Of a DNA stretch of 64,000 nt, positions 7,290 through 62,039 are shown in pieces. Origin of the DNA: Sclerotinia nivalis (Eukaryota > Ascomycota > Leotiomycetes > Helotiales > Sclerotiniaceae); NCBI GenBank assembly GCA_029531795.1, contig JAPEIS010000011.1, forward strand, positions 186,001 to 250,000. The letters are read 5' to 3'. The notes below the pieces were generated by a model that saw nothing but the letters and a program-made list of their open reading frames with translations, made no database searches and was not told where the DNA came from. A program made the position numbers and the translations under genes. Positions within the stretch are counted from its first letter, which is position 1, and each line of letters opens with the position of its first letter.

Positions 7290-9732
7290 ATGCCGGCGAT
7301 ATTCCAAAAAGTTGAGAATATACTACATCATGGACAACACAAGGGACGACTAGCCAAACCCTTGCCCATAGAATGGAATACAGGAGTTCTCAAGGCAGAA
7401 CTTCTTGCTCGTTCTATCTTCGCTGAAGAAGAAGATAAATTGGAAGAAGACTTCGATAAGACTAAATTTGCTACGGGTACATATGTTGGGACCAAAAGAG
7501 CGGTTTCAGAAGTTTATACTCTGATAAATAAAACGTACATGTCTCCCAAAACACAATATCAGCAGGTAAACTAACTAAGTGATGATAGATTTGCCTCATT
7601 TTTCGATGTTCATCAATTAGAATCTCATCTTCCCACGGCTCCCATGTCTCTCGCCGAAAAGAAAGAACGCTTTCAATTCCAAACTCCCGGTTCAGACGGC
7701 TACCCTCCTCATTTGAGTTTAAAGCCCAAAACCGATTTCCTCCACTCACTCAAAATCTTCCAAGCAGATCGTCTCTTTGCTACCGCACCTATCGTTCAAA
7801 AAGTCATTCCAGAAAAATTCTTAGATTTCGCTTACGATGAACCAAATCAACATTCTTTTGCACTCATCGAAAGTGTTAATAAGAAGCTCTTTGACGAAAG
7901 AAGAGATATTGGAAAAATGGCTAATATAGGGATGAGAGAGGATTGGTATTCGGATGAAGTGTATGCCCAACAGCAGTTTACCGGGGTTAATCCGGTGACG
8001 ATTCAGAAGGCTAGTAAGGAGTGGATTCAACAGTTTAAGGCGGCGGCCAGTGCACAGGGGAAATGGAAGTCTCTAACCGTGATTGAAGAGGGTGAGAGGG
8101 ATGGTGGGTTGTATGTGCAGGATTGTAGTTATTTTCGCAAGTTTGCGGGAGTGGAACCGGAGGAACCATTGGTGAGTGATGATGGGAAGAGGTTTGGCTG
8201 TGCGAGCGTTAGTCTTTTTCAGTAAGTGATTCGTTTCTTTCTCTCGTGTTTCTTGGACTTTACATTTTGTTTCGTTTCCCTGCGTTACGTTTCGTTGCGT
8301 TGCGTTTTCCCTCCCTTCGCAGTCCCACTCTTTACGTCGCGCGCGAGCTGCAAGCTATATCTCGTAAGCGCCGTCATTCTCCATAAGCAATCCTGGTTGG
8401 ACATAATACGATAAGCATGCATACGAACTACCCACGTACATAAGCTGGAAAGTTCTCAGCCCTGCAATCAGCCCAACCCGCCCCGTTACGCAAGGATGAG
8501 CGGAGCTAACCGTCATCTCTTCTCACTAAATGTCGTACCATAATTACTAAATCATCACTAACACATTCAGCCTCCTCCCAACCGGCGCTCTCCACCCCCT
8601 CGCCATAATCCTCGACTACAAAATCAACATCACCACATGCCTAACCCTCTTCAATAAACGCACCTCCCCTTCCTCGCCCAAAACCCACGAATCAACCGAT
8701 TGGCCCTGGCGCTACGCAAAACAATGCGCCCAAGTATCCGACTGGCACCTTCACGAACTAGGTGTTCATCTCACACACACACATTTAATCGAAGAAGGAA
8801 TAATCGTCGCGTCACACCGTACACTCCCTTCCTCCCACCCCGTCTTCAAACTCCTATCTCCGCATTGGTTGAAAACTCTCCCGTTAAATGCGGCTGCGCG
8901 CGCTAGTTTAATTCCCCAGGTTATCGTTCATATTAATGGATTATCGGAGAAGGGATCATTAAGTATGGTGAGAAATCAGTACGAAACATTTGATTTCGTG
9001 GGGAGTTATATACCGAATGATCTCGAAGCTCGAGGATTTCCACTCAAAGAATTAGATGGAAAGAGATTCCATAATTATGCCTATGCGAAAAATATGCACC
9101 TAATGTGGTTTGTCCTCCGGCGTTTCGTATCCGGAATGCTACGCCCTTCTTACCCCAACGATTCATCCGTCTCAAAGGATACATACATACAATCCTGGAC
9201 TTCAGAAATCCAATCCGACACCGGTGCAAATATCTCCTCCTTCCCATCTCTCACCACCTTTGAAGCATTGGTCGATGCGGTAACAATGTGCATCCACATC
9301 GCATCCACGCAACACACGGCCGTAAACTACCTCCAAGACTACTACCTCGCCTTCATCCCCAACAAACCCCCCGCCCTCTTCACGCCGCTCCCGCAATCCC
9401 TCTCAGAACTACAAGCCCTCACAGAACAATCCCTCATCGCCTCACTCCCCGTCTCCGAGCCCAGAATCTGGCTCCTGAGTAGCCATTTACCCTATTTGCT
9501 CAGTAGTGTGGTGGCGGATGATCAGAGTTTGTTGGAATATGCACTGAGCGTGAGAGGGGTGGCGGGGAGTAGTGATGGTGAGGATGAGAGGGAGAGGGTG
9601 GCGGGGATGTTTTATGAGGAGTTGGTTGCGTTGGAGGGGGTTTTGGATGGGATTGCGTTGGGGGTTGATGATGGGACGGTGCTTTATCGGGTTTTGGCGC
9701 CGGAGAGGACGGCGGTTAGTATTTTGATTTAG
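7290..9732 (+). CDS. Lipoxygenase (fungal Fe/Mn type)
   Basis: Three exons, 7290-7534, 7589-8221 and 8571-9732, encode 679 residues. Intron 1 (54 bp) has donor GTACAT and branch CTAAC 13 bases before its acceptor; it restores the frame as LINKT/FASFFDVHQ. Intron 2 is 349 bp with donor GTAAGT. Lipoxygenase hallmarks are intact: LLPTGALHPLAI opening the catalytic domain, the first metal-ligand helix WHLHELGVHLTHTH (His354, His359), the SHRTLPSSHPVFKLLSPHW signature, the second helix HTAVNYLQ (His541, Asn545) and the C-terminal Ile679 that closes the metal site in this family. The enzyme inserts O2 into polyunsaturated fatty acids. No signal peptide follows the chosen start, unlike secreted fungal MnLOX, so an intracellular enzyme or a missed upstream exon is likely. 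Metal (Fe or Mn) cannot be told from sequence. Confidence 0.9.
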
Positions 9733-18282: not shown

Positions 18283-20887
18283 ATGTTTATGTTAAGAAAT
18301 GGTATGTAAATAAATAGTCTCCACCCACCCCTCTCTCATTACACCTCCATCACAAGCTTTTCAAGAGCAAAGCGCAAATCAGATATACGATTTCTTTGCT
18401 GAACAATATCTAACATATAAAACAGTCGGCAAATTGATCTTTGGTGATACATCAAAAGAATCTTTGATCGAGCTACCCCAAGGCCAACTTTATCTCGTTC
18501 GACCTCTGTCTCCTAAAGGATATTCTGAACTCATATTTCGCGACGCAGCAGCGAGGATTAGAAGAACGGGCCAGGAATTTCAATACCAACTTGTGATTCA
18601 AAGAGCCTACGAAGAAGGCGAAGAGGAATTACTGGACGACGAGGCTGCGGAGGACGAAGACGGCACAACAGCTTTGAGCGGCGATCGCGACGAGAAAACA
18701 TTCCTCCTAGACGAAAGTTTACATTTTCGATCGGAGATTCGCGAAGGCGGTGAAAAGGTTCTTGCGTGGAGAGATCTGAGCGGTGACGCGGGCGACTTAT
18801 ACGAATTTGTTTGCGACGTTTCGATTGAGAATAGTCAGGTTCAATCATTTGAACTTACAGCTGTGCATTGTCAATTTGAGAGGAAGTTCAGGAGAAGTTA
18901 TTTGACAGCTACTGAAGGGGAGTTGAGTCAATTTGCGTTTGAGGAAGAAGAACCAATTCCGCATGCTAGTCCGCCTATAAGCCCTACAACTTTGAGTCCT
19001 GTGCAATCATTTCCGGCTATCGATCAAACGTTTACTAGAAGCACGGCAAATTCTGCGCTAAAAGGAGACATGAGTCCTGTTACAAGACGGTCGAGGGCGC
19101 CGGCCAGGACTCCATCGCCGGTTGATGAGGGTCCAACGAAGGCACCGGCTGTTGCTGCACACCCCGAGGCTATTTCTGTATTGGCAGAGGAGACCGCCGA
19201 ATTACATCTATTCGACTTCATTTCTGGTTCCTTTATCAAGCAGGACGATGAGGTTAAGGCAACTGTTACCGAAGTTGGGAAATGGCAATATTGGCTACAA
19301 ATAACCGGCAAGGACAGAGACTGGTTAGGTCAAGCTGTTATTGCGGATATCAATCCAGTCTTTAACTTCGAATATTCCTCGTTTATCTTCAATGCTTACA
19401 CAGCTGATCATCAAGCATATTCATGGCTTCTTCGATTCAAGGATCAAGAGACAATCACAAGATTCCAGGAAGGGTTGATGCAAGCTTTATGGGAACAGTT
19501 GAATGAGATTAAGTGGAACAAGAGTAAGGAAGATGAGAGAGATTATGTTCTTGAGGCGTTCCAGGATCTTACCATGGAGGACGCTCCGGATTTTGTTGAG
19601 GGTGAAGAGGAAGAAGAGGAACAGGAGGAGGAAGTGGAGGATCAAGATGACGGACAAAGAAGCGAACACTACGACTCTGATGAGGAAGAAGATGATGTGG
19701 TTACTCGGGACGATGATGGAAATGTCAACTCACAACTTGCGGTTGGATACAAGCATGATCGATCATTTGTTGTTAGAGGATCCAAAATTGGTGTCTTCAA
19801 ACATACACCCAACAACAATCTGGAGTTTTCGACCAACATTTCGAAAGTTCAAACGCCAAATGGCAAACTATTCAGTCCAAAAAAAGTTATGCTTCATGCT
19901 GAGGATACGAATATGATTCTTCAAGATGAGCGTAATCCAAATTCTCTCTATAAAATGGATTTGGAATATGGAAAGATTGTCGATGAATGGAAAGTCCATG
20001 ATGATATCCCTGTCAACACTTTTGCACCAGAAAGCAAATTTGCTCAAATGACAGGAGAGCAAACCTTCCTTGGTCTTTCACGAAATGCTCTTTACCGTAT
20101 CGATCCTCGTCTTGCGGGAAATAAACTTGTCGATTCCGAACTCAAACAATATGTCTCGAAGAACGATTTCTCAGCTGCTGCAACCACCGAAAAGGGGTAC
20201 ATCGCAGTCGCTAGTAACAAGGGTGACATTCGTATGTTTGATCGTCTTGGCATTAACGCCAAGACTCATATCCCAGCTCTTGGTGAACCTATCATTGGTC
20301 TCGACGTTAGTGCCGATGGTCGTTGGGTTTTGGCTACTTGCCGCACTTATCTTCTTCTCATTGATGCTCTCCAAAAAGATGGCAAAAATGAAGGCAAGCT
20401 TGGGTTCGAAAAATCATTCGGTAAAGATTCGAAGCCTCAACCTCGTCGTCTTGGTCTCACACCAGCTCACGTCGCTCAATTCCAACATGAGACTGGCGCT
20501 GCTCTCTCATTTACACCAGCTCGCTTCAATACCGGTGAAGGTCTTTCCGAAACATCCATCATTACAGCTACGGGTCCTTTCATCGTAACCTGGAATATGA
20601 AAAAGATCTTGAGGGGTAGCAAGGATCCTTATAGTATTAAACGTTACGCTGAAGAAGTCAAGGCGGATAACTTCAAATATGGTAGCGATAAGAATGTTAT
20701 CGTGGCATTACCAAATGAAGTTAACATGGTAGCGAAACAAAGCTTCAAGAAACCAACGAGAGAAAGTATTGCGACGCCAGTTAGAGTTGGGTGGAGTAAT
20801 GGGAGAAGGGATAGTGCCAGGATTGGTGGAAGAGATAGTGGGAGATATAAGTTGGGAAGGGAGGATGTGGTTAATAGTCCTTATTAA
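18283..20887 (+). CDS. VID27: VID27 family protein
   Basis: Two exons, 18283-18301 and 18426-20887, give 826 residues. The first exon is only 19 nt and encodes MFMLRN; the 124-bp intron has donor GTATGT and branch TCTAAC, and the junction yields MFMLRNVGKLIFGDTSKES, the characteristic N-terminus of Vid27. The N-terminal domain (about 1-165) is followed by a Pro/Ser linker, a central PH-like domain (ETAELHLFDFISGSF onward), an acidic run near 401-435, and a C-terminal beta-propeller region (DRSFVVRGSKIGVFKHT onward, with KGYIAVASNKGDIRMFDRL). Yeast Vid27 was linked to vacuolar import and degradation of gluconeogenic enzymes; its molecular activity is unclear. The Arg/Gly-rich tail is disordered. 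Confidence 0.93.
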
Positions 20888-23242
20888 GCGATTATTTTTG
20901 GGACTTTGGTTGGAGGCGGGGAGTGTTTATGCTAAGGGAGTGCGGGGAGTTTTCGAGGCATTTTGTGTTTTTTTTTCTGGGAGTGACGGATTCTTCTTTG
21001 AGCTTGCTTTGTTCTTAGCTTGCTTTAAGTATTTTGGGGGAAATGCTTAATTTGATTTTTTAAAGTGCGTGTAGTTTCATGATCGCTTTTTGACAGACAC
21101 TATAGCGGACAGGACACATGATTCAAGGATAGGAATAACAGAAGCGATACCATGCATGGGTAGATGGGTATTCATACTATTCATACTATAGAAAGATAAG
21201 TATGATTGGTGTGTGTAGTTGGGATTGTCGGCAGATGGAAATGGGAAAGGCATGGGAATAAGAAAGGCATGAGGATGTTTTTAGCAAGCAGATAAGCCGG
21301 CGAGGTGTTTAGCTTGTGGTTGGTTGGTAGTTAGTTAGGTAGTTAGTAGGTAGTAGGTAGTGAATGAATAGGATTAGTATTATTAGTACTGTGCTTTTTG
21401 TGAGTTGAGTTGTGAGTTGAGTTGTTAGTTATATTGTTTTTGAATTTAGAGGGAGGAGTTTGGGATGTTTGTTTGTGATGAGATGGATGGGGTGAGTTGA
21501 GATGGGATGAAATAAGATGAGATGGAATGAATGGATTGGATGGGATGGGTGGCATAGAATAGGATAATGAGACAGGAGTAAGATAAGATTAAGCGAAAGT
21601 ATATTCGTTCAAGATTCAAATACATCAGCTACCTAATCTTAAATGGCTACTTAATCTTAAATAACTGGCTATCTAATTGTATTGATTGTGAGGATTGTGA
21701 TGGGATATTGGGTAGGAATAGAATGGGGTTTGTGTTTATTGTGTTATATTTTTGTTATTTATAGTGGGAATTTGGTGAGTGGGTGTAGTTTGGTATATTT
21801 TAGTTTGATGGGGGGTTGGAAGGGGGTTGGGATTTGGGATATAGGGAATATTTAGGGATTTAGGTATTGGATATAAAATTGATTGTGGATGGGATGGTGG
21901 GTTGGTGGGATGGTTGAGATAAATAAAATAGTGGAATGGATGAATATATTATAAGGTTTATTATCTAATTAATAGCTAGTTATAGTATTAAACAAAATGT
22001 TTTCGATGGATTGATTGATGGAGTGTATATGGTGTATGAGAGATGTTGAGGATGTAGAATAAAGAATGTAGGATATAGAATGTAGAATATAGAATATAAG
22101 GGATGTGAAGAATATAAATGATGTTTAATAAGATAGATAGGTAGATAGGATATAGGATGTAGGATGTAGAATTTAAGGGATGTTTGTATAGGATATAGAA
22201 TATAAGCGATGTGAAAGATATTTGTATAGATAGGTAGGTATAGAGACAGAGAGCGGTATTTGTATATCTAGGTATCTAGAATAGGGGGGTATATATATAA
22301 GAGTTCGGGTAAGGGTATTTATATGAGTGTTTAGGGTGAGATGAGGATGAAGACGAGAATAAGGGTGAGGATGAGGATAAAAATGAGAAAATGATGAGTC
22401 CTGATAATTTTGATGTTCAATATGTATAAAGATAAATATATATTAGTCTCGTAGTAATAAGATTTATACTATTTCAAGTTTTCAAGTGCTCAATATATAT
22501 CGATTCAAAATATATAATAATCTAAATAAACGGGATGTTTTAAATATTCGAATCAAATTATAAATCTAATAATATACTTTTTAGATATATAAATCTTTTG
22601 AATATAAATCTTATATTTTGATTTAAGTAAGATGATTATTATATTGTATATTGTATATGAATAAGGGGGGTTTGTAAGTTTCGTAATCGAAATAATTACC
22701 GAAATGAATACTTCAAAATCTACAAGTGAAGAATATAGATGAGGGCTTAAGGCCTATCTATATATATGATTTGGAGAGATACCAGGTCTGAGAGAAAATG
22801 AAAGAAGAATGAATCATTATCCCAAGAATGACCGGTGTGCCAGTGACGGCAGAGAATAGACTCTTCCGTTACAGGTTTGGAGAGAGAGATAGCTATAGAT
22901 TTAGGTTTGTCGATTTTGAATATGTCGATGAATGTGAATAAATTTAATGAATAAATTACTATAGTTTGTTGAACTAGAAGATCAAAATACAACAGTGATA
23001 AAGTAATTATCAAGTAATTATCACGAGCGAAAGAAATGAGTTATTTTTCTAGGGTTATTCATCTATATATTGAGCTATAGAAGGGTCAACTGGGGTTATA
23101 AACATGAATTCTGATATTAATATCCCTCCATTTTAGAAAGTATTAAGTAGAATGCTTGTGGGTGGCTCAGATATTCAGATCAAGATCAATAAAGTTATTG
23201 AAAAGGCAATAAGTTGGAGTATCTTATCATTAATTATAAAGA
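20888..23242. repeat. Low-complexity, strand-asymmetric AT/G-rich region
   Basis: About 2.4 kb with no gene. From about 21150 to 22400 the plus strand is almost free of C and built from short words (GTTAGTTAGGTAGTTAGTAGG, GATGTAGAAT, GGATATAG). An imperfect longer repetition of TAGAATATAGAAT...AAGGGATGTGAA occurs near 22050-22230. From 22400 on it becomes strongly AT-rich. It reads as decayed simple sequence rather than coding DNA. Confidence 0.55.
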
Positions 23243-24238
23243 CTATTGTAGCTTCACACTTTTAGACAGACAATAGTGTGCAGAATTACAATCGTCACAA
23301 AATTTCTCCGTTTCCTCCTTCTCGAGCAATTTACGCCGTCCATCTGTTGTGGAATATATCCCCCATTTCTCCCAGAATGTCGTCTCGCAAATCATCTTTT
23401 GGATGGGTGCAATGATTACTCTTTTTCTCTCTTCTGCCAAGTCAAACGAATCGCTATCTTCCCTTAATATCCCTTCAATCCACCACTCCAGCTCTGCACG
23501 CTTGTTTTCGGTGACCTTATTTTGACCAATTCTCCCGCAGGAGTAACGAATAAATTCGGCCGTCCAACTCAGTCTCATGTTCCAGTCACTCCATAGACCA
23601 AATTGGAAATTTAAGAGATCCAGCAGGGTTATAAGGCAGGCGAAAGATGCAAGATGGTGAACATTTTGGTACGTAAAATACTCGAGGAAATCATGCCAGC
23701 TTTTAAATTCGGGGGCAAAAATTCGAAGAATACAGGTTTTTGTTATAAGCCATATCGTGAGAAGATAGAAGTTTTCACGATGAGACAGACAAGGCGGGAT
23801 CCCTTGTCGCGAACCAGATAGATAAATCGCGAGGCGTTCTTTTTGGAGTTGTATCTCTTTCTTTGCCTGTTCTGGTGTCCATGATTTCCTACGAAATGCA
23901 AAAGGAAATTTGGCACTTCTAGTCTCATCAAAAGACTCGAGAAGCACTCGAACTCGAGAAAGCTTCTCAAAAGGGGAGAAGTCTCTAGATATAATGTAAT
24001 CGTTATATCCCAATCCTCTCGGAGACCTTCGAAGTGAAGCAGAAAAAGAAATCAAAGAGATGTTCCAAAAACAAAGCCAGCAAAAGTGGTCGTCATTCAG
24101 GAAAGGGCTGTATCTTTGGCGTACGAAGTATACGAATGCCGAAAGACACAGAATAGGCAAGAGCCGGTAGATGATAAATGCAAGGGGATCTGGAATACGA
24201 GAACGTTTGTCCTCAGGTTCGAGTGTAGTAAACTTCAT
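23243..24238 (-). CDS. Orphan predicted membrane protein
   Basis: A single-exon ATG frame of 331 residues. Near the N-terminus two hydrophobic stretches follow a basic leader: LAFIIYRLLPILCLSAFVYF (about 19-38) and DHFCWLCFWNISLISFSAS (about 50-68). Two further hydrophobic stretches lie mid-protein (FYLLTIWLITKTCILRIF and FACLITLLDLLNFQF). The C-terminal third is charged and carries CDDCNSAHYC near the end. The layout resembles small lineage-specific fungal membrane proteins; no family is recognised. It sits in AT-rich, repeat-laden DNA, so it may be a young or decaying gene. Confidence 0.5.
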   Translation of the reverse strand: MKFTTLEPEDKRSRIPDPLAFIIYRLLPILCLSAFVYFVRQRYSPFLNDDHFCWLCFWNISLISFSASLRRSPRGLGYNDYIISRDFSPFEKLSRVRVLLESFDETRSAKFPFAFRRKSWTPEQAKKEIQLQKERLAIYLSGSRQGIPPCLSHRENFYLLTIWLITKTCILRIFAPEFKSWHDFLEYFTYQNVHHLASFACLITLLDLLNFQFGLWSDWNMRLSWTAEFIRYSCGRIGQNKVTENKRAELEWWIEGILREDSDSFDLAEERKRVIIAPIQKMICETTFWEKWGIYSTTDGRRKLLEKEETEKFCDDCNSAHYCLSKSVKLQ

Positions 24239-25741: not shown

Positions 25742-25895
25742 TTGCTGTTGCTGTTGCTGTTACTGTTGCTGTTGCTATTGCTGTTGCTATTGCTATTACT
25801 ATTATTGTTGTTATTACTATTGCTATTGTTGTTGCTATTGTTGTTGCTGTTATTGTTGCTATTACTATTGTTATTGCTATTGTTATTATTGTTGT

Positions 25896-25951
<56 letters not shown>

Positions 25952-25981
25952 GTGCTGGTGCTGGTGCTGGTACTGGTGTTA
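25742..25981. repeat. (CTGTTG)n / (CAACAG)n microsatellite
   Basis: About 240 bases of trinucleotide-phased CTG/TTG/CTA/TTA units on the plus strand, ending in a pure CTGTTG run followed by GGTGCT units. On the minus strand one frame reads poly-Gln interrupted by TAA/TAG, another Ala/Thr. The degenerate CTA/TTA units are concentrated in the middle. Confidence 0.95.
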
Positions 25982-28932: not shown

Positions 28933-30242
28933 TTAGAGCAAGAATGCTAAAGCTCCAACAGCGTATGCTTCCGTAGCAACAGTGAGAGTAGGCTGAATAG
29001 CTATTTCGAAAAGGGGGCTATGATTACCTTGAAAGATTATTAGCTTTTGATGTTTAAGGTGAGGCTCATGATCATACCTGCAATCTCAGCAAGCTTACCG
29101 GCCCTTTCAGCTTCGTCCCATCGTTGTGGATCAATTCCTCCATAATTCCAGAAGCAGGAAGGCGTCGAGATAGCCAAGTTCGCAAAATCCTCGCTGCCCA
29201 TCGAGACTGGCCCATTTGAGGAAAAGTTCTCCCCAAAATGTTTCGTCATCGCTTGGGAAATAGTGTCAGTGGCTGTTTCATCATTGTATAGTAATGGAAA
29301 CGAGCTCGTCTCCTCGATAAGCGGTGGTTTGGGAGAATTGGAGGCGATGCACTCGGCGCTGATAATACGCTCAATCGCTGCTTTGACACGATTTCGTGAG
29401 TCGGCGGTAAAAGTTCTAGTATTGATACGCAGTAGTGCCTCTGAACTAATAACATTCTCTGTCGTGCCCGCCTGCAACGCTCCAACAGTCACGACAACCG
29501 CCTCCTGCGGGTTCGTCTCCCGACTCACAATCGTCTGCAATTTCATCACTGTGCTGCATGCCAGTACCACTGGATCCACTGTCGTATGTGGACGACTTCC
29601 ATGTCCGCCTCGGCCAAAGAGCGTCGCTTGGTAGCTATCTGCTGCGCTACCAAAGATCCCTTTTCTTGTGTTGAGCATTCCTGCCCTCATGGGCATAACG
29701 TGGGCACCAAGGACTACATCCGGTCGTGGAACCGCGTGCCTCTTCTCATCGTATAATCCGTCATCAACCATAGCTTGTGCACCAGCGCCACGTTCTTCGT
29801 TTGGTTGGAAAAGTAGCACGACCGTACCATTCCAACTATTCCGGCATGTGTGTAGGAGTTCTGCAGCAGCAAGCAAAGACGTAATGTGCATATCATGACC
29901 GCAAGCATGCATAACCGGCTTCTCAAAATTATCCGTGGTATCTATCATTCTTTTGGTGCTTGCGTATGGTAAACCAGTCTGCTCTTGTAAGGGCAATGCA
30001 TCGATATCGGCTCGGAGAAGGACGGTCTTCCCTGTGCCGGACCTGAGGATTCCAACGATCCCATGCCCGCCAATGTTCGGCCGGATTTCAACTCCTTCTA
30101 GTAGTTTCAACTTATCGTGAATCATGCTAGCTGTTGCGCTTTCTTGGAGAGAGAGCTCTGGGTTGGCGTGAAGTGTGCGAAACAATGATTCATAAGGAGC
30201 TAGATTTGGCAGGGCCTGAGATATGAGCGTAGAGATATCCAT
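28933..30242 (-). CDS. M20D amidohydrolase (aminoacylase / IAA-amino acid hydrolase type)
   Basis: Two exons on the minus strand, 30242-29078 and 29027-28933, encode 419 residues. The 50-bp intron has donor GTATGA and branch GCTAAT; splicing replaces a premature stop with GNHSPLFEIAIQPTL, the expected family C-terminus. M20D features are in order: LHANPELSLQE, GIVGILRSGTGKTVLLRADIDALP, the metal motif MHACGHDMH (Cys114, His116), LLFQPNEERGAGA (Glu149/150), GAHVMPMRAG, GRGGHGSRPHTTVDP in the dimerisation domain, and MGSEDFA. Such enzymes hydrolyse N-acyl or amide bonds of amino acids (hippurate, auxin conjugates, N-acetyl amino acids). No signal peptide is seen. It lies on the same strand as the synthetase paralogue and oxygenase and may process an amide intermediate; that role is inference. 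Confidence 0.93.
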
Positions 30243-32183: not shown

Positions 32184-33524
32184 TCAGGCATCGACAGGAT
32201 AAGCTAACTTTGTCACTGCTTGCCACTCTTCGTTCTCCTCATACTTCTTTCGAATAGTGTCTAGCAACTGATTGAAGGCGCCAGAGACGGCGGTATTTAT
32301 CTCCTCAACAGTGATCCGGCCATCAAAAAGACTCTTTTCAACCTCTTCATAAGAGCTGTAGTGCTCTTCCCCGCTTTTCACTTTCACAGAGAAGACTGTG
32401 CCGTCCGGGGAATTAGCTCCGGAGAATGACTTTTGACCCTCGGTAATTCCTATCCTGGCTCGAAGGTGACTAATCGGAATCAAGATGTCCCTGAGAGAAG
32501 CCATGACACCGTTTGTCAAGGCACTTTCAACTTTGGTATTCGCTCCGAAGATCTTCTTGGTAACTGTTTCAGCGTCGTCAAGGAACGCGATCTTCGTATT
32601 GGGAGGGTGCGATGATGACATTTTCCCTCCTAGGAGGTTTGGAAGCATAGGATTCATAAGATGGCCACGCTTCTTGAATCCAAGCTGCGGCATGAATCGG
32701 TCCGAGAATCCGAAGATGCCAGCCTATGGGGTAATTTGGTAATCAGGAAAATGGCCACTATCAAAGTCAGGGGTTGCTTACCTGGTCCGCGCCACCAAAC
32801 TGAAAATCAATGTCGAGATATTCCTCCGCCAAGGACTGCATTCCAGGACAGAACATTGGACTCAGCATATCGGGGTTGTAGCTCCGATCCCAGGCGTCTT
32901 TGACCGCCTGCTGGGGAACGATCGTACAAAGTCTCCATTGGTCCCTGGTGAATTCAGGTGTGTTTACATAGGTCGATTCCTGAACAAACTGCACCTTGCT
33001 CGCGGGAATCCCGATTGCCTCGATCGCCGCACTTATGACGAACTTGTAGTAGTGCATGCGCTGTAAGACTTGTTCCATAGGATAGTTGACATTGTCAAGG
33101 AATGAGTAAACATCAAGCAAGCCAGCCACAACCTATAATAGTTCGATTAATTAAGGTCAGGAAGGGAAATAGCAGTTGACAATTTACATCGACGCCTGCT
33201 TCTATGAAATCTGCGAATTTCAAAATTGGAATGAAATATCCGATGTGTGCTATTCGATCAAATCAGCGCTTGTCCAATTTGATTTGACTGCCATTTTCTT
33301 GCTCACGTTTTCCCGTTGGTGATGTTGCTATTCAGAATGTTAGCCCGACTATAATGTATTGATGATATGTGAATTGACTTACCCCAGAAGCATCTTGGGT
33401 TCCTGCCCTCAGCTTTCAGAGCAGCTTCGATCAGCTCTAGGCCTGAAATATTCTGCGCAGGTAGTCTCTGCGTAATGAGATCCAATCTTGCTGCTACGGT
33501 ATCGTTTGAGGGAGCCATTTTCAT
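32184..33524 (-). CDS. Divergent tyrosyl-tRNA synthetase paralogue
   Basis: Five exons on the minus strand (33524-33383, 33327-33307, 33249-33188, 33132-32782, 32723-32184) encode 371 residues. All introns have standard donors and acceptors; exon 2 is only 21 nt and carries most of the ATP-site loop. Class I motifs are intact: PTGKPHIGYF (51-60) and KMSSS (226-230), with MNPMLPNLL before it. Overall alignment is with eukaryotic cytosolic TyrRS without the extra C-terminal domain. The amino-acid pocket is altered: Phe46 replaces the conserved Tyr (human Tyr39), Cys170 replaces Tyr166, Ala177 replaces Asp173 and Tyr84 replaces His77, while Gln174 and Gln192 are kept. The R-K after the last Gln is A-G. 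It probably does not select plain tyrosine. Possible roles are activating another amino acid for biosynthesis, or resistance to a tyrosine analogue. An ATG two codons in is an alternative start. Confidence 0.88.
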
Positions 33525-33750
33525 GAAAAAGTATCTAAAGAATCAATAGAAAGCCAAATGCTACTTGATGGCTCTTCCACATAACACTTTGGATTAATGA
33601 TATAGTAAAGAGCCACGGCGAGCACGGAGGCAGTCTTTCTTACCCCGTGCTCACGTACCCCTTGATCTACCCGCCTGATCCGCGACTGAATCGCAGCTTA
33701 CTCTGCGTTGTCAAAACCAATATCGAAGAAAAATATACTTTAGTCGATCT

Positions 33751-34052
33751 GTTGCATATTAGCTATTATTGCAGGATCCCCAGTCTCAGCGGTAGTTAAT
33801 CTGCAACCAAGAGACCAAAGCTTATTTCCATTTGCTTCTACTGCAGGATCCCCAGTCGATATGCAACAAATAAGCGAGAACCAAATTTTGTTTGATATGC
33901 AAGATACGGTTTTAGCGGGGAAAGTGTATTCTGTTTGTTGTTGGTGCAGAATACCCAGTTTTAATAGTAGCTAATATGTAACAGATTGACTGAGGTATTT
34001 TTGCTTACTATTATTGCAGGGTCCCCAGTTTTAGCAGTGGTTAATGTCCCTT
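33751..34052 (+). repeat. Four degenerate copies of a TTGCAGGATCCCCAGT block
   Basis: Copies centred near 33776, 33849, 33957 and 34023 share TATTATTGCAGGATCCCCAG and, in three of four, AGTAGTTAATATGCAAC after it. Spacing varies (about 65-110 bases). Confidence 0.7.
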
Positions 34053-34350
34053 AAAGGCTGAATAAGATTTAGCATCGTGCCACCCCTGCCAGATAGCAAG
34101 CTCTGGACGTAGACTTTAGAGCGGTCTCTGGGTGAAATCCGATATGCAATTACGAAGGCACCATTTTTTAGGTTCATTACTCATAAGGGTGGAGTAGTAT
34201 TTCGCCCAGCGTGGCTATGTTGGCACACGTAAGCGCATAATGTAGTCTTACATACCCACCTCCATGAGGGGAAACCCCCCTGCTGAGGTGAAAGCTATTA
34301 GAGCTCGGCTTGTAGAACTTCAGCTACATGGTACAGAGCAAATGAAACTC

Positions 34351-34915: not shown

Positions 34916-35854
34916 TCAAAACTTAATCGCCTTCTCGGGTCTCAAAAAGTACACAACATAATATCTCTTCTCAAACCCATCCGACGGCTGAGTAACCCGA
35001 TGGAGAGGGGAATGGAGCTTGCCCTTAGACATAGCCTGTAGCGAATCGGCAACATTAACGAGCACATGCCCTTCTTTTGGCACCACAAAGCCCCATTCCT
35101 TCGTCTCGGGCATTTCAATTTCGACGCCCCACTGATCACTGAAAACTAACGTCAAGGTACCCATGTCATTGTGCTTATTGTCGACCACATCAGCCTTCTT
35201 GTGTTTGAGGGGCTCGTAGACCAACTTGAGGCCAGTGCCACTGGGCTCGCCCTCACGGTGGAAGTTCTCAAATCGATTGTCGGAGTTCGTATTGAGAGCA
35301 CCTGACAAGCAAGAGAGCATCGTGTGCACAACGGAGTAACCAGTTGAAGAGAACTGCTCAAGAAGTTGAGATCGTTCGCCCAAGACTCCGGGAAGAGCGC
35401 GCTGCTTCTTGACAATATCATCGCGGAAAATCTGGGCAAGTGTTAATACAAGCTTAAGGAGGAAGCAATTGAAGAGCTTGCCTCGAAAGTTTCTTCGTGT
35501 TCACCCGGTTTGTAGCTAGAAATTGAATTAGAATATACCATGAGACTTGGGCGCTAGAATAGTAACATACCCACCATCATCCTCCTCATCAAAAGTCTTC
35601 ATTTTCACTTCTTTCGCCTGGTCAAAGTATGTTTCTGAGACAGCATACAACTCCTTCAACTCCGCGAGCCACTCCTTGGTTGGCTCATCCCGGAGATCAA
35701 GCCAGAAGATTCCAGGTTTCTGGCAGACCTGAACGAGTTTTTCAATCTCGAGCGGGTCTTTGCTGGTCAGGCGCGCGTAGTTGATGCTCTCGAGAGGAGC
35801 AACGTCAACTTCACGACCGCCTACTGTGACGGTTTGCAGAGTATTGTGAGGCAT
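34916..35854 (-). CDS. 2-oxoglutarate/Fe(II)-dependent dioxygenase
   Basis: Three exons on the minus strand, 35854-35571, 35515-35482 and 35431-34916, encode 277 residues. Intron 1 has donor GTATGT. Intron 2 begins GCAAGC and ends CCCAG, so it is a GC-AG intron; no usable GT donor keeps the frame EHEETFE/IFRDDIV. Residues 1-100 are the DIOX_N domain (PGIFWLDLRD, YFDQAKEVKMK). The oxygenase core has KHNDMGTLTLVF, giving His193 and Asp195, the distal HSPLHRV His250, and KRYYVVYFLRPE with Arg262 as likely 2-oxoglutarate anchor. All three iron ligands are present. It is somewhat shorter than many plant/fungal relatives (300-350 residues). It is divergent from the HDO gene across 1.5 kb, next to the synthetase paralogue; oxidation of an amino-acid-derived substrate is a guess. 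Confidence 0.92.
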
Positions 35855-37323: not shown

Positions 37324-39612
37324 ATGGAAGGTCTACACTTTGCTGTGAATGCTGATATCAGTATGGATATACTTCTGCGAGCGTTCTTCGCTGTCTGTTC
37401 CGTTATACTTGTAATCTCATTACTTCGGATGCGCCTGATGACAGCAAGCCTACCTTTTGAAGGTAGAGCAATGGAAGGAAAAGGTATGTTCTGCCACAGT
37501 CAGAATTTTAGCCGAGTTTTATTTACTAACATTGCCTCTATAGCATCTCTCCCTGTGTCTGAGAAAATACAAGACAACGCTCAGGTTGAAGAACAAATGC
37601 AACTGCATAAAGAACTTTACTTCAAGCTTCAAAACCTCGAAGACTACCCCGAAGTATTGCCACAATCTCGAGACCTGTTGATCTCACTGTTCTCGGAGAC
37701 CCTTACAGGAGCGCTCCAGAACCCCAGACGCGGGATTTTGGCCGTTGAACATTACACTCGTGACGCGGTAACGAAGTTCTTACTTGGCGAGCATGACAAT
37801 ACAGTACAGCTCTGGGAGCAATACTTAAAAAGGAGGGAAGCCGGACAGCCAATGGAGATGTTCAGGAATCGGGAACAGGCTAAATTGTGGCTAAAGCAAA
37901 ACGCACCAGTGAAATACGTTGATGGCGCTTGGCTGGGTCATATCCACAAAGTCACGACTCCGTTTGCTTTGCGCAGGACGACAAAAGACACTTGGCAGGT
38001 GTTGTCCGAGGAACTTGGCGACGGAGAATTGGATAAAAACCACGTCTACATCTACCGTGAGCTGATGCGGGAAATTGACTCTAGCCTACCAGACGGAGAC
38101 AGCCCTGATTTCATACATCCAAGGCACCAGCTCAACAACCCAAACGTCTGGAAAGCAGCTCTTAGTCAATTACTGATATCTCTCTTCCCACACGAGTTCT
38201 TGCCCGAGATCCTCGGCTTCAACATGCACTTTGAGCTCCTCACCATGGGCACGATGAAAGCTGCCAAAGAACTTGAAGAACTAAAGCTCAATAGCTACTA
38301 CTTCTACCTACACATATCCATCGATAACGCAGACTCAGGCCACACGGCGATGGCTTTACAATCGGTCCTTCGATACGTCGAAGACATACGCGCATCAGAG
38401 GGGGAAGCGGCTGCACAACACATTTGGAAACGCATCCAAGCAGGCTATATCCTCTCCGAGAGCGTCCTTGACGCAAACGAATCCCATAGCCATGCCCGCC
38501 CGGTCACAGTCGACGTAATGTTCCCTTCCAACAAGCGCGAAGAGGAAGTTCTCGATATCTTTAAAGCCAAAGCGTCAGTGGCGCACAAGATTCACTGCAG
38601 CAGCAAAGCGATGATTGGGCGCCGGTCACTGATCGACTGGCTTGCCCCGGAAGCCTTCGTATCGAAGCAGTGGCAAATGGAGTTTTTGAATGATCTAGCC
38701 AACGCGAAAAGGTGGGTGTGGAAGGGGCATAGTAGCAAGAGCTCACTGGTACGGGAATTATCTTGGAAGGGCAAGATGTTCGGAGCCTTTACACAAAAGG
38801 AAGTTGAGGTCCTCAAGGGATGGATTGATTCCCTGGGAACCCCGGACTCGGCGATGTACTGGCGATTTGTTGGCCGAGAAGCGACAAACTCGACCCAGGT
38901 TCTCCAAAACCTAGACATCGCCGTCGACTATCCAGTGTTCTCACAGCAGCCCACAGCGTCTGCCAACCCAATTTACTCGATTCCCTCCCCTGTTTTCGCC
39001 TTGGCCACGGTCCAATTCACTCCCAAACCCCTCTTCTCCACCGACTCACAGCCCCGTCTCTCCATCCTTCTTCCCCTCTGGTTCACCCACCCCTGTCTCC
39101 TTGAGACCACCATCGCCACGCCTGCGAAAACTACCAACGCTACCTCTGCCGCTACCCTGCGCCTCCTACGAGCCCAATCCGGCTTCTCTGCCGAAACCGC
39201 TATCGTCGCCGGCATGGATGAGCTACGATGCACTGAGCAACCCGGTCTGATGGAGCTTGGCCAAGAACTCATGCGACGTCACGGCCTTCCGGAGCCGAAG
39301 TGCCTCAAGGACGTATTGCAGGACAGCACTGACGCTGAGTTTGCGCATTCCATGCTAAGCTGGGCGATGCGGCCAGTAGCGAATTTAGGGTTGCTGCTTG
39401 GGTTGACAAAGGCGTTTGTCGAGTTACACGTTTGGGTAGCAGGGTCGGGGATGCTTTCTGAGAGTGGTGCACAGTCGCTACGGACCATCGTCGCAAGGGA
39501 GGAAGATTGTTTGGATATTTGTTTGAAGGAGCTGGCGGGGGACGAAATCCGCCATGGGGAGTTTTGGAAAGGGTATGCACTTGGAAGAGCGGAAATTGAG
39601 AAATGTTTTTAA
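37324..39612 (+). CDS. Membrane-anchored haem-oxygenase-like diiron (HDO) protein
   Basis: A long open frame from ATG 37324 gives 762 residues. A hydrophobic segment (about residues 14-34, LLRAFFAVCSVILVISLL) suggests an N-terminal membrane anchor. The centre is an iron-containing redox enzyme/HDO domain: FLPEILGFNMHFE supplies Glu295 and His302 with the typical Glu-x6-His spacing, and YFYLHISIDNADSGHTAMAL supplies His330, Asp334/Asp337 and His340. HDO enzymes use O2 for desaturation, C-C cleavage or N-oxygenation of amino acids and fatty acids. The C-terminal third is unassigned; it ends in KELAGDEIRHGEFW (Asp740-His744), resembling a helical metal motif. Near 37463-37543 sequence resembles an intron (TACTAAC, CTATAG); an 81-bp removal from GTAGAG keeps frame, while the stronger GTATGT donor at 37494 would shift it. 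Hence the N-terminus is uncertain. Confidence 0.82.
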   Translation: MEGLHFAVNADISMDILLRAFFAVCSVILVISLLRMRLMTASLPFEGRAMEGKGMFCHSQNFSRVLFTNIASIASLPVSEKIQDNAQVEEQMQLHKELYFKLQNLEDYPEVLPQSRDLLISLFSETLTGALQNPRRGILAVEHYTRDAVTKFLLGEHDNTVQLWEQYLKRREAGQPMEMFRNREQAKLWLKQNAPVKYVDGAWLGHIHKVTTPFALRRTTKDTWQVLSEELGDGELDKNHVYIYRELMREIDSSLPDGDSPDFIHPRHQLNNPNVWKAALSQLLISLFPHEFLPEILGFNMHFELLTMGTMKAAKELEELKLNSYYFYLHISIDNADSGHTAMALQSVLRYVEDIRASEGEAAAQHIWKRIQAGYILSESVLDANESHSHARPVTVDVMFPSNKREEEVLDIFKAKASVAHKIHCSSKAMIGRRSLIDWLAPEAFVSKQWQMEFLNDLANAKRWVWKGHSSKSSLVRELSWKGKMFGAFTQKEVEVLKGWIDSLGTPDSAMYWRFVGREATNSTQVLQNLDIAVDYPVFSQQPTASANPIYSIPSPVFALATVQFTPKPLFSTDSQPRLSILLPLWFTHPCLLETTIATPAKTTNATSAATLRLLRAQSGFSAETAIVAGMDELRCTEQPGLMELGQELMRRHGLPEPKCLKDVLQDSTDAEFAHSMLSWAMRPVANLGLLLGLTKAFVELHVWVAGSGMLSESGAQSLRTIVAREEDCLDICLKELAGDEIRHGEFWKGYALGRAEIEKCF

Positions 39613-45949: not shown

Positions 45950-47674
45950 CTAGGAAGCACCCGAATGCCTCGTAGCCCTAAAAAACACCAAAACCAAAAG
46001 AAGCGTCGCAGCCGCTAACCCAACATTAACCCACTCCCCCGCTCTCAACCCCTTCAACATCGACGGATCTCGATGAATTTCCGATCCCCCTGTGCTTCCT
46101 ACCGCTCCCTGCACGGCCGTTGCAATCGCCAGACCTAGAGATCTACCGACCTGATTCGAGGTATTTAGCAGCGCGCCTCCAAGCGACTGATCACTTTCGT
46201 CGAGACGGCGTACCACGAAAAGATTAATTGTCGGTGATAACATGTCCGCGCTGATGCATAGACACATGGCTGGAAAACCGTAGGCCCAATACGTCGTGTT
46301 TGGGGAGATGGGCAATGCGAAGAGAAGCGGGGATATAATGCCGCAGATGGTCGAGAAGACGAGGACGTAGAAACCCGGGAAGATGGTTAGAGCTTTGGCC
46401 GTTACGAAGGATACGAGCACTATTACTATTTAGCCATTTTGCCCAGATATGAAATTTAGATTTATACTTACGGCCTGCAACTCCAGCTGGGAGGAAGCGT
46501 ACTGTTGTTTCGATAACTCCTAGTCCGAGGAAATCCTGATAACTAGATTTAAAGTATTAGCTTTGTGCTCGGAGGCGAGAGAATATCTTCAAACTTACAA
46601 ATAGGTCGCAAAGATCAAGTAGCTATTGTAGGATGCGAAAAAACAGCCGATAATAGCAAATGCAGATGTGAATTGCGCATTTCTGAACATGGAAACTTTC
46701 ACAAGTGGACTGCGGTCGGTACGCTCCAAATGTCGCTGCCAAAAGTAAAAGACCACCATTAAAAGGAGCGCTACTACAATGAGCACAGGAATCCAAGGGG
46801 TACTCCACCCAATCCCACCACCCTCCGTGAGAGCGAACAAAAGCGTAATCAAGCTTGTCGATATTAGCGCTCCTCCAATCCAGTCGACATCTAATTTACT
46901 GTCAGGGTCGATAGTTTTCACCGGAGGCCGAGGGATAACAATAATCCCAGCCACCGTGGTGAAAGCGGCAAGAATAGCAATGATCCAGAAGACCCATTTC
47001 CAGCTGAGGTAAGCGCCGATAATCCCGCCCATAATATTTCCCATGACGGATCCCAGCGCTGAAGTGGCGGTATAGGTGACGAACGCGTAAGTTCTCTTCT
47101 TACCGGGTGGAAAGGTGGAGCTTAGGATTCCGACCGCGGACGGAACCGTTGCGGCGCTACCGAGCCCCTGCAGCGCCCGTAAGATGTCAAACACAATTTC
47201 GCCGGGGGAGAATGGGATCGTGACGGTAATAATGGTGACGAAGATGGAACCATATATGAAAAAGATTCGCCGGCCGTAGATATCTGCGAGACGACCCCAG
47301 AGAAGTAGAACGCAGGCAAATGCTATATTGTACGATGACGTGATCCATTGTTGGCGGTTCGGAGGTATTCCGAGGGCTTCGCTAATGGATGGCAACATAA
47401 TCACAGCAGATTGCACAAAGATGATCTTTTTTAGTAGGAAATTAGTATTACGAAATGCAGAGGATAGGTAGCAATTGAGCTACAAACGTACATTAAGGAA
47501 GCCAGCTCCTGCCAATGTTAGCACCAAGGCAATTTCTCTCGCTGTGGATAATAGTTGTGCCGGTGGCTGATCGCTGAGCTCTTCCTCGCTCGTTACAGGT
47601 CTGACTATTCCTCTGGCAGGCTTCTTCAGCTCCAGGTTGCCAGCAGGGCTGTCTGGTCTCTGCTGTTCAAACAT
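45950..47674 (-). CDS. MFS drug/metabolite exporter, DHA2 type
   Basis: Four exons on the minus strand (47674-47492, 47425-46599, 46542-46472, 46419-45950) encode 516 residues; all three introns (66, 56 and 52 bp) have GTACGT or GTAAGT donors. A cytosolic leader precedes about 12-14 hydrophobic segments. MFS motif A reads GRLADIYGRR (105-114), and ITSSYNIAFACVLLLWGRL before it is typical of DHA2 drug:H+ antiporters. ALQGLGSAATVPSAVGILS is the next conserved helix. The C-terminal part includes GRSLGLAIATAVQGAVG. Such pumps export antibiotics and fungal metabolites. Its place beside the synthetase/oxygenase group suggests product export, but nothing in the sequence shows the substrate. The upstream 3.3 kb is gene-free, so its promoter is isolated. 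Confidence 0.92.
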
Positions 47675-59693: not shown

Positions 59694-62039
59694 TATGCTT
59701 TGTTTTTAAAATCGCCTTTAGCATTCTCTCCTAGGTTCTCCTTAATGAGCGAGATGCGATACCACACACTACCAAAAATTTCGAATTTTAGCCCGAAAAC
59801 TGCTTCAACATCAATCACATGATATGATCTTGTGGCTGTGGAAGCGATCGAACGCTTGATACCAGTTGATTTTCATACGATAGCTTAACATACCGCCATG
59901 TCAAGATTAAAGTTTATTGTTGCGAGTAGCGATGGACGATCTGTACATAGAATACCTTTCCTTTTTTTTCTTTTTTTTGCTTAGATTCTCTTTTTTTTTT
60001 TTAGGTATGATGACATACGTGCATGTATGGAATATTTTGAGATGATATCTTCTGAGAAAAGTCATCGGAGATGAAGATGACATTGAAGGGGATGTTTGTG
60101 AACGAACTTTCGCTGGCGTTTCATCTAGCGATGGATTTATATGCTAGGTAGAAGGATGGATTTGCACTGAGTGGAGAAAAGAAAGGATGGGAGGTCTGGC
60201 GCGAGGTGTAGTGGACAGGGCGTTGCTGGAAGTTGAACCGCCTTAGAATGGATGGATGGCCGAGCGTGCATTCATGTGTGATGGGATAATTATGATGGGC
60301 GATGTGTACTATACCAAAACAAAACTCAAGTGAAGTGAGGACAGAGAAAAAAAAGGACAAGAGAAAAATTTCTGTGGCTTTGGTGTGAAATGTGACGTCA
60401 TGTTATAAGGATGTGCTTGCAGTTGTTGTTTTCTTTCTTTTATTTTTAGAATTGTACAATGAGTTTAGTGAAGATGATCTAGATTCTCGACCTAAGGCAA
60501 AATGGTAAGGAAAGGGGGATATGGAGGAAAGGCAATGTGGAGGAAAGAAAAGGAGAGGAGAGGCGGTAGAAAATATTCCGACCCCGAATTCTTCAGCAAA
60601 GTAAAGTGTGAAGTTGGTCGGTTGGATGTGCAAGTGTTCATTGTCCAAGCAGAGTGTATTCTGAGAAGGGTCCCAAGTCTTCCGAATTGCGCATTTGTAT
60701 TAGTAGTTATGTGGTTGTGGGGGGAAAATGGACCTGCAGTCAGGTTTGGGGGTTGGTTGTGGATGAGAGAGCTGTGGATTTTTATCATAGATGGTTTGTA
60801 TTTGGGAATTGTGGGTTGTGGGGATTGTGGAGATTGTAGGGATTGTAGGGATTGTAGGGATCTGGTTTGCGAACTCGTGTAGATGTAATACAGCTGCATG
60901 ATTTTTTATGAATGGTTTAGGGTCTATTTATATTGATGTAAATGTGGATTTTGGGACTTAGAGTTGCAGTCTGGGGTTGTGAGCAGGGGGGGAGGGTAAG
61001 GGGAGGAAGGGCAAGGGGAGGGAGGGTGTTAGGTTCAGAGCGGTGCGAAGACGAATCATTAGTCTGAGGGATTTATGGGGTTGTGGAATTTATAGGTTTA
61101 TGGATTCGTAAAGTTGTTATTATAAGATCATCGAGAAGAGAGACCAATCTTCGAGTCAACCGCGTATTTTTTGCGGTGTCTTTTTTTTTCCTTTTTTTTG
61201 GCGATTATGCATATTTGGTAGTGATTTCTGAGTGGATGGATGTCAAGGACTCATAGCTGTAGTTGTGAAATCTGCGGTTTGAGGTTTTATTCTGGGGTCT
61301 GGTGGATGCGATGATAAAATGTTATTCAGGATGTATGTTGTTGGGATGTGGAGGATATGTGTGTTTGGTGGTTTATGACGCGGAGCTGTGATGGGGGGTG
61401 GGAGGGGTGTTGTGATGAGGAGATTGTATGTGAATAATGCGGATCTTAGAGTTATGTTATGAGTATGGGTTGCGAGGTTGAACTGTGGTTATGAACATTG
61501 GGAGTATGAGTGAGCGCGGGTTTAGGGACTTATTGTATCGTTTATTAAGAAGTATTCAACGAGGCAAGTCAGCGGTAAAGCCACTCGAGTCAATCGTAAT
61601 TTTTCTGATGATGTTTATGATTCTTCATATGAGGGATTGTGCGTTCTGGGGATTCAAAGAGCGCGGAGCTTGTTTATCTGGGGTTTAATGAAGACTTTCC
61701 TTGTTTGTATTGTTGGTTTTTTGTTTCTTTTTGTCGATATACTTATGAAGGATGATGAGGTATTTAGACCTAGAAACTATAATCGATAATGTTACATACC
61801 CTACGACTTTCGAGTCATCTTTCGAGTGTTATTTAGAAATTATGAGTTCGACTCATAATGACTCATGTGTCTTCCACATTTTGTCTACTTAAGAGTTCCG
61901 CTTCTTGTTAATTTCTACGTCCCTTTCCAATATCAACATCAACATTGGAACTCCATCAGTATTCAACTTTTCCATCAATATCAAAATTTCTAACAAACAT
62001 CACCATCGGAGTCGATTTTCATTCACTAACAACCCAAAG
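59694..62039. other. Long intergenic region, no supportable gene
   Basis: About 2.3 kb. Poly-T runs lie near 59960-60001 and 61188-61199, and a four-unit GATTGTAGG tandem near 60827-60858. Frames on both strands at 60490-60900 overlap and look like composition effects. The last 280 bases are the promoter of the next gene. Confidence 0.45.
61761..61818 (+). promoter_or_regulatory. Shared promoter block, copy 1
   Basis: Contains TATTTAGACCTAGAAACTAT, then ATCGATAATGTTACA and TTTCGAGTCAT, 220-280 bases upstream of the ATG at 62040. The same ordered words occur at 63151-63207 before the paralogue. Confidence 0.6.

Follow-up and report, generated by a model that had tools for sequence, protein, structure and literature searches.

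The window, that is, the whole stretch of 64,000 nucleotides of the Sclerotinia nivalis genome that was analyzed, contains on its minus strand a gene resembling those of tyrosyl-tRNA synthetases (TyrRS). According to the splice model it spans 33524-32184 and consists of five exons that join into an open frame of 371 amino acids ending at 32184; the four introns (55, 57, 55 and 58 nt) are all of the GT-AG type. Exon 1 (33383..33524), defined by the splice model and by homologues, starts with the ATG at 33524 and contains Phe46; exon 2 (33307..33327) has only 21 nt and encodes the bulk of the HIGH-region stretch ATSPTGK; exon 3 (33188..33249) starts with PHIGYF; exon 4 (32782..33132) encodes Tyr84, Cys170, Gln174, Ala177 and Gln192, as well as Asp154 in the place of human Lys147 (yeast Arg151); and exon 5 (32184..32723) starts with Ala-Gly, where the housekeeping proteins have Arg-Lys after DQ, and continues through KMSSS and a C-terminal domain with apparently altered anticodon-side positions to the stop codon. 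As the relatives P0001-P0003 found in the protein search have 369 amino acids, translation may actually begin at the second ATG, two codons downstream. The related protein P0005 of Glutinoglossum americanum reads, as annotated, LKCLWAHIGY without the TSPTGKP stretch; since most of this stretch is encoded in the window by the 21-nt exon, the public gene model of P0005 probably skipped the tiny exon.

Next to the TyrRS-like gene lie the genes of a 2OG-Fe(II) oxygenase resembling isopenicillin N synthase (34916..35854, minus strand, 277 aa; the PF03171 match was obtained with a larger ORF) and of an HDO (37324..39609, plus strand, 762 aa; PF14518, E 4.7e-36). The former is modeled with exons 35854-35571, 35515-35482 and 35431-34916, the second intron being read as GC-AG. 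The search with this protein yielded 27 proteins in total, 26 of which have the HxD motif; its nearest other relative in the S. nivalis genome is 29% identical over a part of the length. The HDO, which alone matched PF14518 when the 50.3-Mb genome was searched, is composed of a predicted helix (residues 14-41), the HDO domain (approximately 85-391) and a C-terminal region (approximately 400-762) that yielded no confident match. Residues Glu230, His240, Glu295, Glu304, His330, Asp334 and His340 are invariant in all 37 aligned proteins; these putative ligands share the E-x9-H and H-x3-D spacing with the metal ligands of SznF, as named in PMC11705231, but the final His is spaced differently. The structural model of the HDO is nearest to the N-oxygenases RohS, HrmI and SznF, although the Foldseek matches are weak (the best at 3.5e-02, none at E 0.001 or better). 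On the other side of the TyrRS-like gene is the gene of an M20D-type amidohydrolase (29043..30242, minus strand, with the start taken at the Met of MDIST), a possible further member of a gene cassette. A gene of an MFS transporter (45953..47479, minus strand, two ORF pieces), approximately 12 kb from the TyrRS-like gene, may encode an exporter and is likewise a candidate member. No NRPS or PKS domains were found in the domain scan, which took in 30 of the 127 window ORFs of at least 90 codons.

The TyrRS-like protein matches PF00579 (E 3.3e-30) and retains the whole class-I synthetase fold, including the C-terminal domain, with the HIGH and KMSKS-type motifs. Alignment with the human (1n3l) and yeast (2dlc) enzymes assigns Phe46, Tyr84, Cys170 and Ala177 to the positions of human Tyr39, His77, Tyr166 and Asp173, respectively, and Gln174 and Gln192 to those of Gln170 and Gln188, so the pair reading the tyrosine hydroxyl, Tyr39/Asp173, is absent. 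All six residues had been listed in the initial annotation, at the same numbers as in the spliced frame, and the alignment with the human and yeast proteins places the pocket changes at the positions named there.

The genome harbors a second TyrRS gene with the normal residues on a different contig (C1:3927753-3928496), and a bacterial-type TyrRS-like gene on contig C15. The window gene is thus not the only cytosolic TyrRS but a paralogue, as had been proposed, and the explanation as the housekeeping copy was rejected given the normal gene on C1; the explanation as a mitochondrial copy was rejected given the bacterial-type gene on C15, and that as a pseudogene was rejected given the intact frame and splice sites and the 92% identity to P0001. 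Directly upstream of the housekeeping gene on C1, on the opposite strand, there is an ORF of 395 codons, which we take to resemble pogo/Tc1-type transposases.

The protein search retained the best 120 of 292 relatives, to which all family counts refer; with the window, human and yeast proteins, the aligned set comprises 123 rows. Asp173 is present in 79 rows and absent from 44, which share the changed pocket and are hereafter referred to as the family; the changed pocket is thus neither a chance feature nor peculiar to a single fungus. With rows gapped at a column omitted from its count, the family has Leu (17), Phe (6), Gln (6), Ala (3) or four singletons, one of them Tyr, at position 39 (n=36); Tyr (40) or Phe (1) at position 77 (n=41); Cys (29), Thr (13) or Ser (1) at position 166 (n=43); and Ala (33), Gly (5), Ser (5) or Met (1) at position 173 (n=44). 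Tyr39 thus occurs in 1/36 family rows versus 77/78 comparison rows, the latter also having His77 in 78/79 and Tyr166 in 79/79 cases; hence, the pocket residues of the family are nearly absent from the Asp173 rows, whereas their presence in proven housekeeping enzymes would have spoken against the proposal in the initial annotation; the proven housekeeping enzymes among these 79 rows are the human and yeast ones. Pocket sets differ by subclade: some rows combine Leu39, Cys166 and Ala173, while a second subclade has Gln39, Glu or Asp72, Thr166 and mostly Gly173 (for example, Q39/E72/T166/G173).

As the groups were divided on residue 173, this column is circular; however, a tree built on all kept columns reproduces the split. 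In this tree of 61 rows, 38 family rows (including the window) form one clade with SH-aLRT 100; the other 23 rows include the human and yeast enzymes and the S. nivalis housekeeping copy. The clade groups with basidiomycete TyrRS and not with the branch on which the S. nivalis housekeeping copy and the yeast enzyme lie. This tentative placement, obtained in a quick tree search with some long end branches, may reflect an ancient transfer, an ancient duplication, or fast change of the ascomycete housekeeping TyrRS. An organism name is available for 36 of the 44 family rows, all of which we take to be Pezizomycotina; the remaining eight are the window and metagenome proteins.

Conservation along the alignment separates two kinds of sites. 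Among 178 columns with a conservation of 90% or more in the 79 Asp173 rows, 55 hold the same residue in at least 90% of the family; these include the HIGH region (Thr45, Gly46 and His49 each kept in at least 90%), KMSSS (Lys and Met invariant in 44/44, the serines kept in 42 or 43), GG and DQ (both invariant in 44/44), and Gln170 (40/44). Gln188 is likewise retained in 44/44 family rows. At the other extreme, 32 of the 178 columns are kept in less than 10% of the family, and these comprise pocket positions 39, 41, 74, 77, 166 and 173 as well as putative tRNA-contact positions. The strong divergence at pocket and tRNA-side positions could be explained by a catalytically dead protein with the TyrRS fold in a binding or regulatory role, but such a pseudo-enzyme would be expected to shed the ATP motifs first, and their retention makes this explanation hardly probable. 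The pocket rebuilt throughout a clade that keeps the ATP motifs also bears out the proposal that the gene is neither a spare housekeeping copy nor a decaying one.

The positions of Lys147 (yeast Arg151) and Lys190 and those in the C-terminal domain are presumably contacts to C1-G72 and to the anticodon of tRNA-Tyr. The first of them is occupied in the family by Asp (32) or Glu (6), with neither in six of the 44 rows; Lys190 is replaced by Gly in 41/44; residues 153-155 are deleted in 44/44; yeast position 318, His in 73/77 comparison rows, has His in 0/44 family rows; and yeast Asp321 is retained in 10/44. The window protein, with Asp154 for Lys147/Arg151 and Ala-Gly for the Arg-Lys after DQ, appears to lack the basic residues taken to read C1-G72. 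The net charge of the family is -10.9 (42 rows) versus -1.1 for 78 comparison rows, which are mostly basidiomycete and glomeromycete; within the S. nivalis genome the gap is small, -5 for the window protein (331 residues) versus -3 for a part of the housekeeping copy (311 residues). The literature describes C1-G72, A73, G34 and U35 as the eukaryotic tyrosine identity set and Glu152 of a bacterial TyrRS as warding off wrong tRNAs (PMC9976931), and reports an Asp286Arg change made in archaeal TyrRS to boost charging of a tRNA with the CUA anticodon (PMC9499402). Judging from the changed tRNA-side positions, the TyrRS-like protein has likely lost its translational role. The initial annotation had mentioned neither these changes and the likely loss nor the neighboring oxygenase genes.

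Nevertheless, charging could persist in another form: a dedicated synthetase would load tRNA-Tyr or another tRNA with a non-tyrosine amino acid, and a pathway enzyme would then remove the residue from the tRNA, as for VlmL, the SerRS paralogue of valanimycin synthesis. Both VlmL and SbzA are bacterial precedents (PMC9437257 and PMC2922099). The complete fold with its C-terminal domain is consistent with this scenario, as is yeast Arg193, the Arg of DQRK, which is Ala in the window but remains Arg in 30/44 family rows, so that this presumed tRNA contact survives in a part of the family. However, the Asp or Glu at position 147 (38/44), the Gly at position 190 and the loss of Asp321 argue against it, and the search for a linked tRNA gene was negative: neither ARAGORN in its bacterial mode nor Rfam gave a match within the window. 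The 30 scanned ORFs contain no aminoacyl-tRNA transferase domain either, although such an enzyme could be encoded elsewhere. Overall, we consider this scenario unlikely.

The initial annotation had also suggested that the pocket was changed to refuse an antibiotic analogue. The protein would then be a self-resistance TyrRS that still yields Tyr-tRNA but avoids a tyrosine-like toxin made by the adjacent enzymes. Second synthetase copies shield the producers of albomycin, mupirocin and indolmycin, according to PMC9437257, and the gene does adjoin oxygenases, with the MFS transporter not far away. But a resistant spare needs to read tyrosine and tRNA-Tyr, whereas the tyrosine-reading positions 39, 77, 166 and 173 and the putative tRNA-Tyr readers appear to be altered jointly and clade-wide, so this suggestion is not favored. 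Moreover, the variation of pocket letters by subclade suggests several substrates rather than one drug, and we regard self-resistance as very improbable.

Two or three of the TyrRS-like, 2OG and HDO genes occur on one contig in Sclerotinia, Stromatinia, Lasallia, Glutinoglossum and Xylona; in fungi other than S. nivalis, linkage was read from locus tags and equal sizes of contigs rather than from contig-spanning sequence. The TyrRS-like and HDO genes share a contig in Stromatinia (EAF04_010233 and EAF04_010235; contig size 662216) and Lasallia (112195); the TyrRS-like and 2OG genes do so in Glutinoglossum (FGG08_005305 and FGG08_005304; 80876) and S. trifoliorum (2491066); Xylona has all three on one contig (3318606); and the 2OG and HDO genes occur together on two further contigs (49514 and 12715). 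The contigs of Xylona and S. trifoliorum are large, so co-occurrence there is weak evidence of linkage; stronger evidence comes from the consecutive or near locus tags and from the 112-kb contig of Lasallia. In Endocarpon the family TyrRS (345316) and the HDO (255698) are on separate contigs, and in Cladophialophora immunda the family TyrRS and a distant relative of the 2OG enzyme (38%) carry locus tags of different series. Most other named family members have no HDO or 2OG partner among the matches listed (for HDO, the best 120 of 854). Two HDO relatives from Orbilia oligospora, P0232 and P0236, are annotated with a class I/II aminotransferase domain (PF00155); these are either true fusions or merged gene models, and they hint at a further enzyme of the pathway.

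The ATP machinery is constrained, in contrast to the tyrosine and putative tRNA-Tyr sites, and the partner genes encode oxygenases; this combination is most simply accounted for by an amino-acid-activating ligase of small-molecule metabolism. We therefore favor, with a probability of about 0.62, the explanation that a former TyrRS has left translation and serves a pathway conserved in fungi by adenylating an amino acid other than tyrosine, similarly to the bacterial MetRS-like ligases. Using the retained HIGH region, KMSSS and GGxDQ, the enzyme would convert ATP and an amino acid to an aminoacyl-adenylate; the substrate would not be tyrosine but an amino acid suited to a pocket without the phenol-reading pair; and the acyl group would be handed to a small amine or hydroxylamine instead of tRNA-Tyr, with the adjacent N-oxygenase-like HDO and the 2OG-Fe(II) oxygenase as pathway partners. 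The window subclade has a non-polar para end of the pocket (Phe or Leu39, Ala173) and Cys at position 166, which presumably touches the substrate amino group. This makes tyrosine less likely than a hydrophobic amino acid that is larger or altered at the para position, or than one altered at the amino group. The subclade with Gln39, Glu or Asp72 and Thr166 probably accepts a different substrate.

Compared with eukaryotic cytosolic TyrRS (yeast 2dlc, human 1n3l), the family lacks the tyrosine-hydroxyl pair, His77 and Tyr166, has Lys147 and Lys190 reversed or lost and 153-155 deleted, and has mostly lost the C-terminal Asp. Many structural matches of the TyrRS-like protein are laboratory-evolved archaeal TyrRS variants, in which, as described in PMC9499402, Tyr32 and Asp158 (human 39 and 173) were changed to admit larger tyrosine analogues. 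Those enzymes are engineered and charge tRNA, whereas the fungal change is natural, family-wide and accompanied by changes on the tRNA side. The CysRS-like MshC of mycothiol synthesis, which couples an amino acid with a small amine in an ATP-dependent ligation (PMC9437257), is likewise a synthetase paralogue acting as a ligase, but differs in the parent synthetase and the bacterial host. The same logic is seen in bacterial systems with a MetRS-like protein, a cupin and an N-hydroxylase, predicted in 2010 to be a peptide-ligase system (PMC2922099); the MetRS-like/cupin systems are now described as hydrazine synthetases, joining amino acids and N-hydroxy-amino acids in an ATP-dependent manner (PMC11705231 and PMC2922099). 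By analogy, the fungal cassette may work in a similar way. However, the window protein has no MetRS-like domain, its fold and ancestry being those of TyrRS; the partners are a 2OG enzyme instead of a cupin and an HDO instead of a flavin N-hydroxylase; and the fungal set consists of separate genes and belongs to fungi rather than bacteria. Being TyrRS-derived and accompanied by 2OG and HDO enzymes, it falls outside the hydrazine synthetase family. For MshC, we know of no oxygenase partners.

A more specific version, which we consider speculative and rather doubtful, is that the cassette is an ancient eukaryotic counterpart of the hydrazine synthetases: the HDO would N-hydroxylate an amine, a tRNA-free TyrRS ligase would couple this amine with the activated amino acid, the 2OG-Fe(II) enzyme would drive a rearrangement or oxidize further, and N-O or N-N metabolites of Pezizomycotina would result, subclades with distinct pocket letters yielding distinct products.

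A literature search on this family and on synthetase paralogues accompanied by fungal clusters, HDO or 2OG enzymes, in which subscription journals were thinly covered, turned up no account of the family or the cassette, although a report may have gone unseen. A 2026 HDO review places the superfamily in bacterial species and, in a term search, returns no fungi as organisms and no eukaryotes. If our explanation is correct, the locus would be a eukaryotic parallel to the bacterial pathways with retired-synthetase ligases, and would include an HDO superfamily enzyme from a fungus. How synthetase specificity changes can seldom be read from natural enzymes whose pocket has been rebuilt; this clade supplies dozens of them, with pockets varying by subclade. 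The data also point to a biosynthetic cassette conserved in fungi, of a kind that could be missed by cluster-finding programs built around NRPS and PKS.

Several other features of the window were observed. At 33720-34070, 5' of the TyrRS-like gene, inspection by eye showed several diverged GCAGGATCCCCAGT-like motifs with GTTAAT or GCTAAT close by; the tandem repeat finder made no call for these copies at score 40. The ORF at 8551-9729 has a lipoxygenase domain (PF00305, profile positions 290-583 of 673). The GC skew is strong relative to the rest of the window at 20001-24000 (0.36, 0.23) and 60001-62000 (0.45). Finally, approximately 38 TTGCTG hexamers are located at 25742-25978, where ORFs overlap on both strands.
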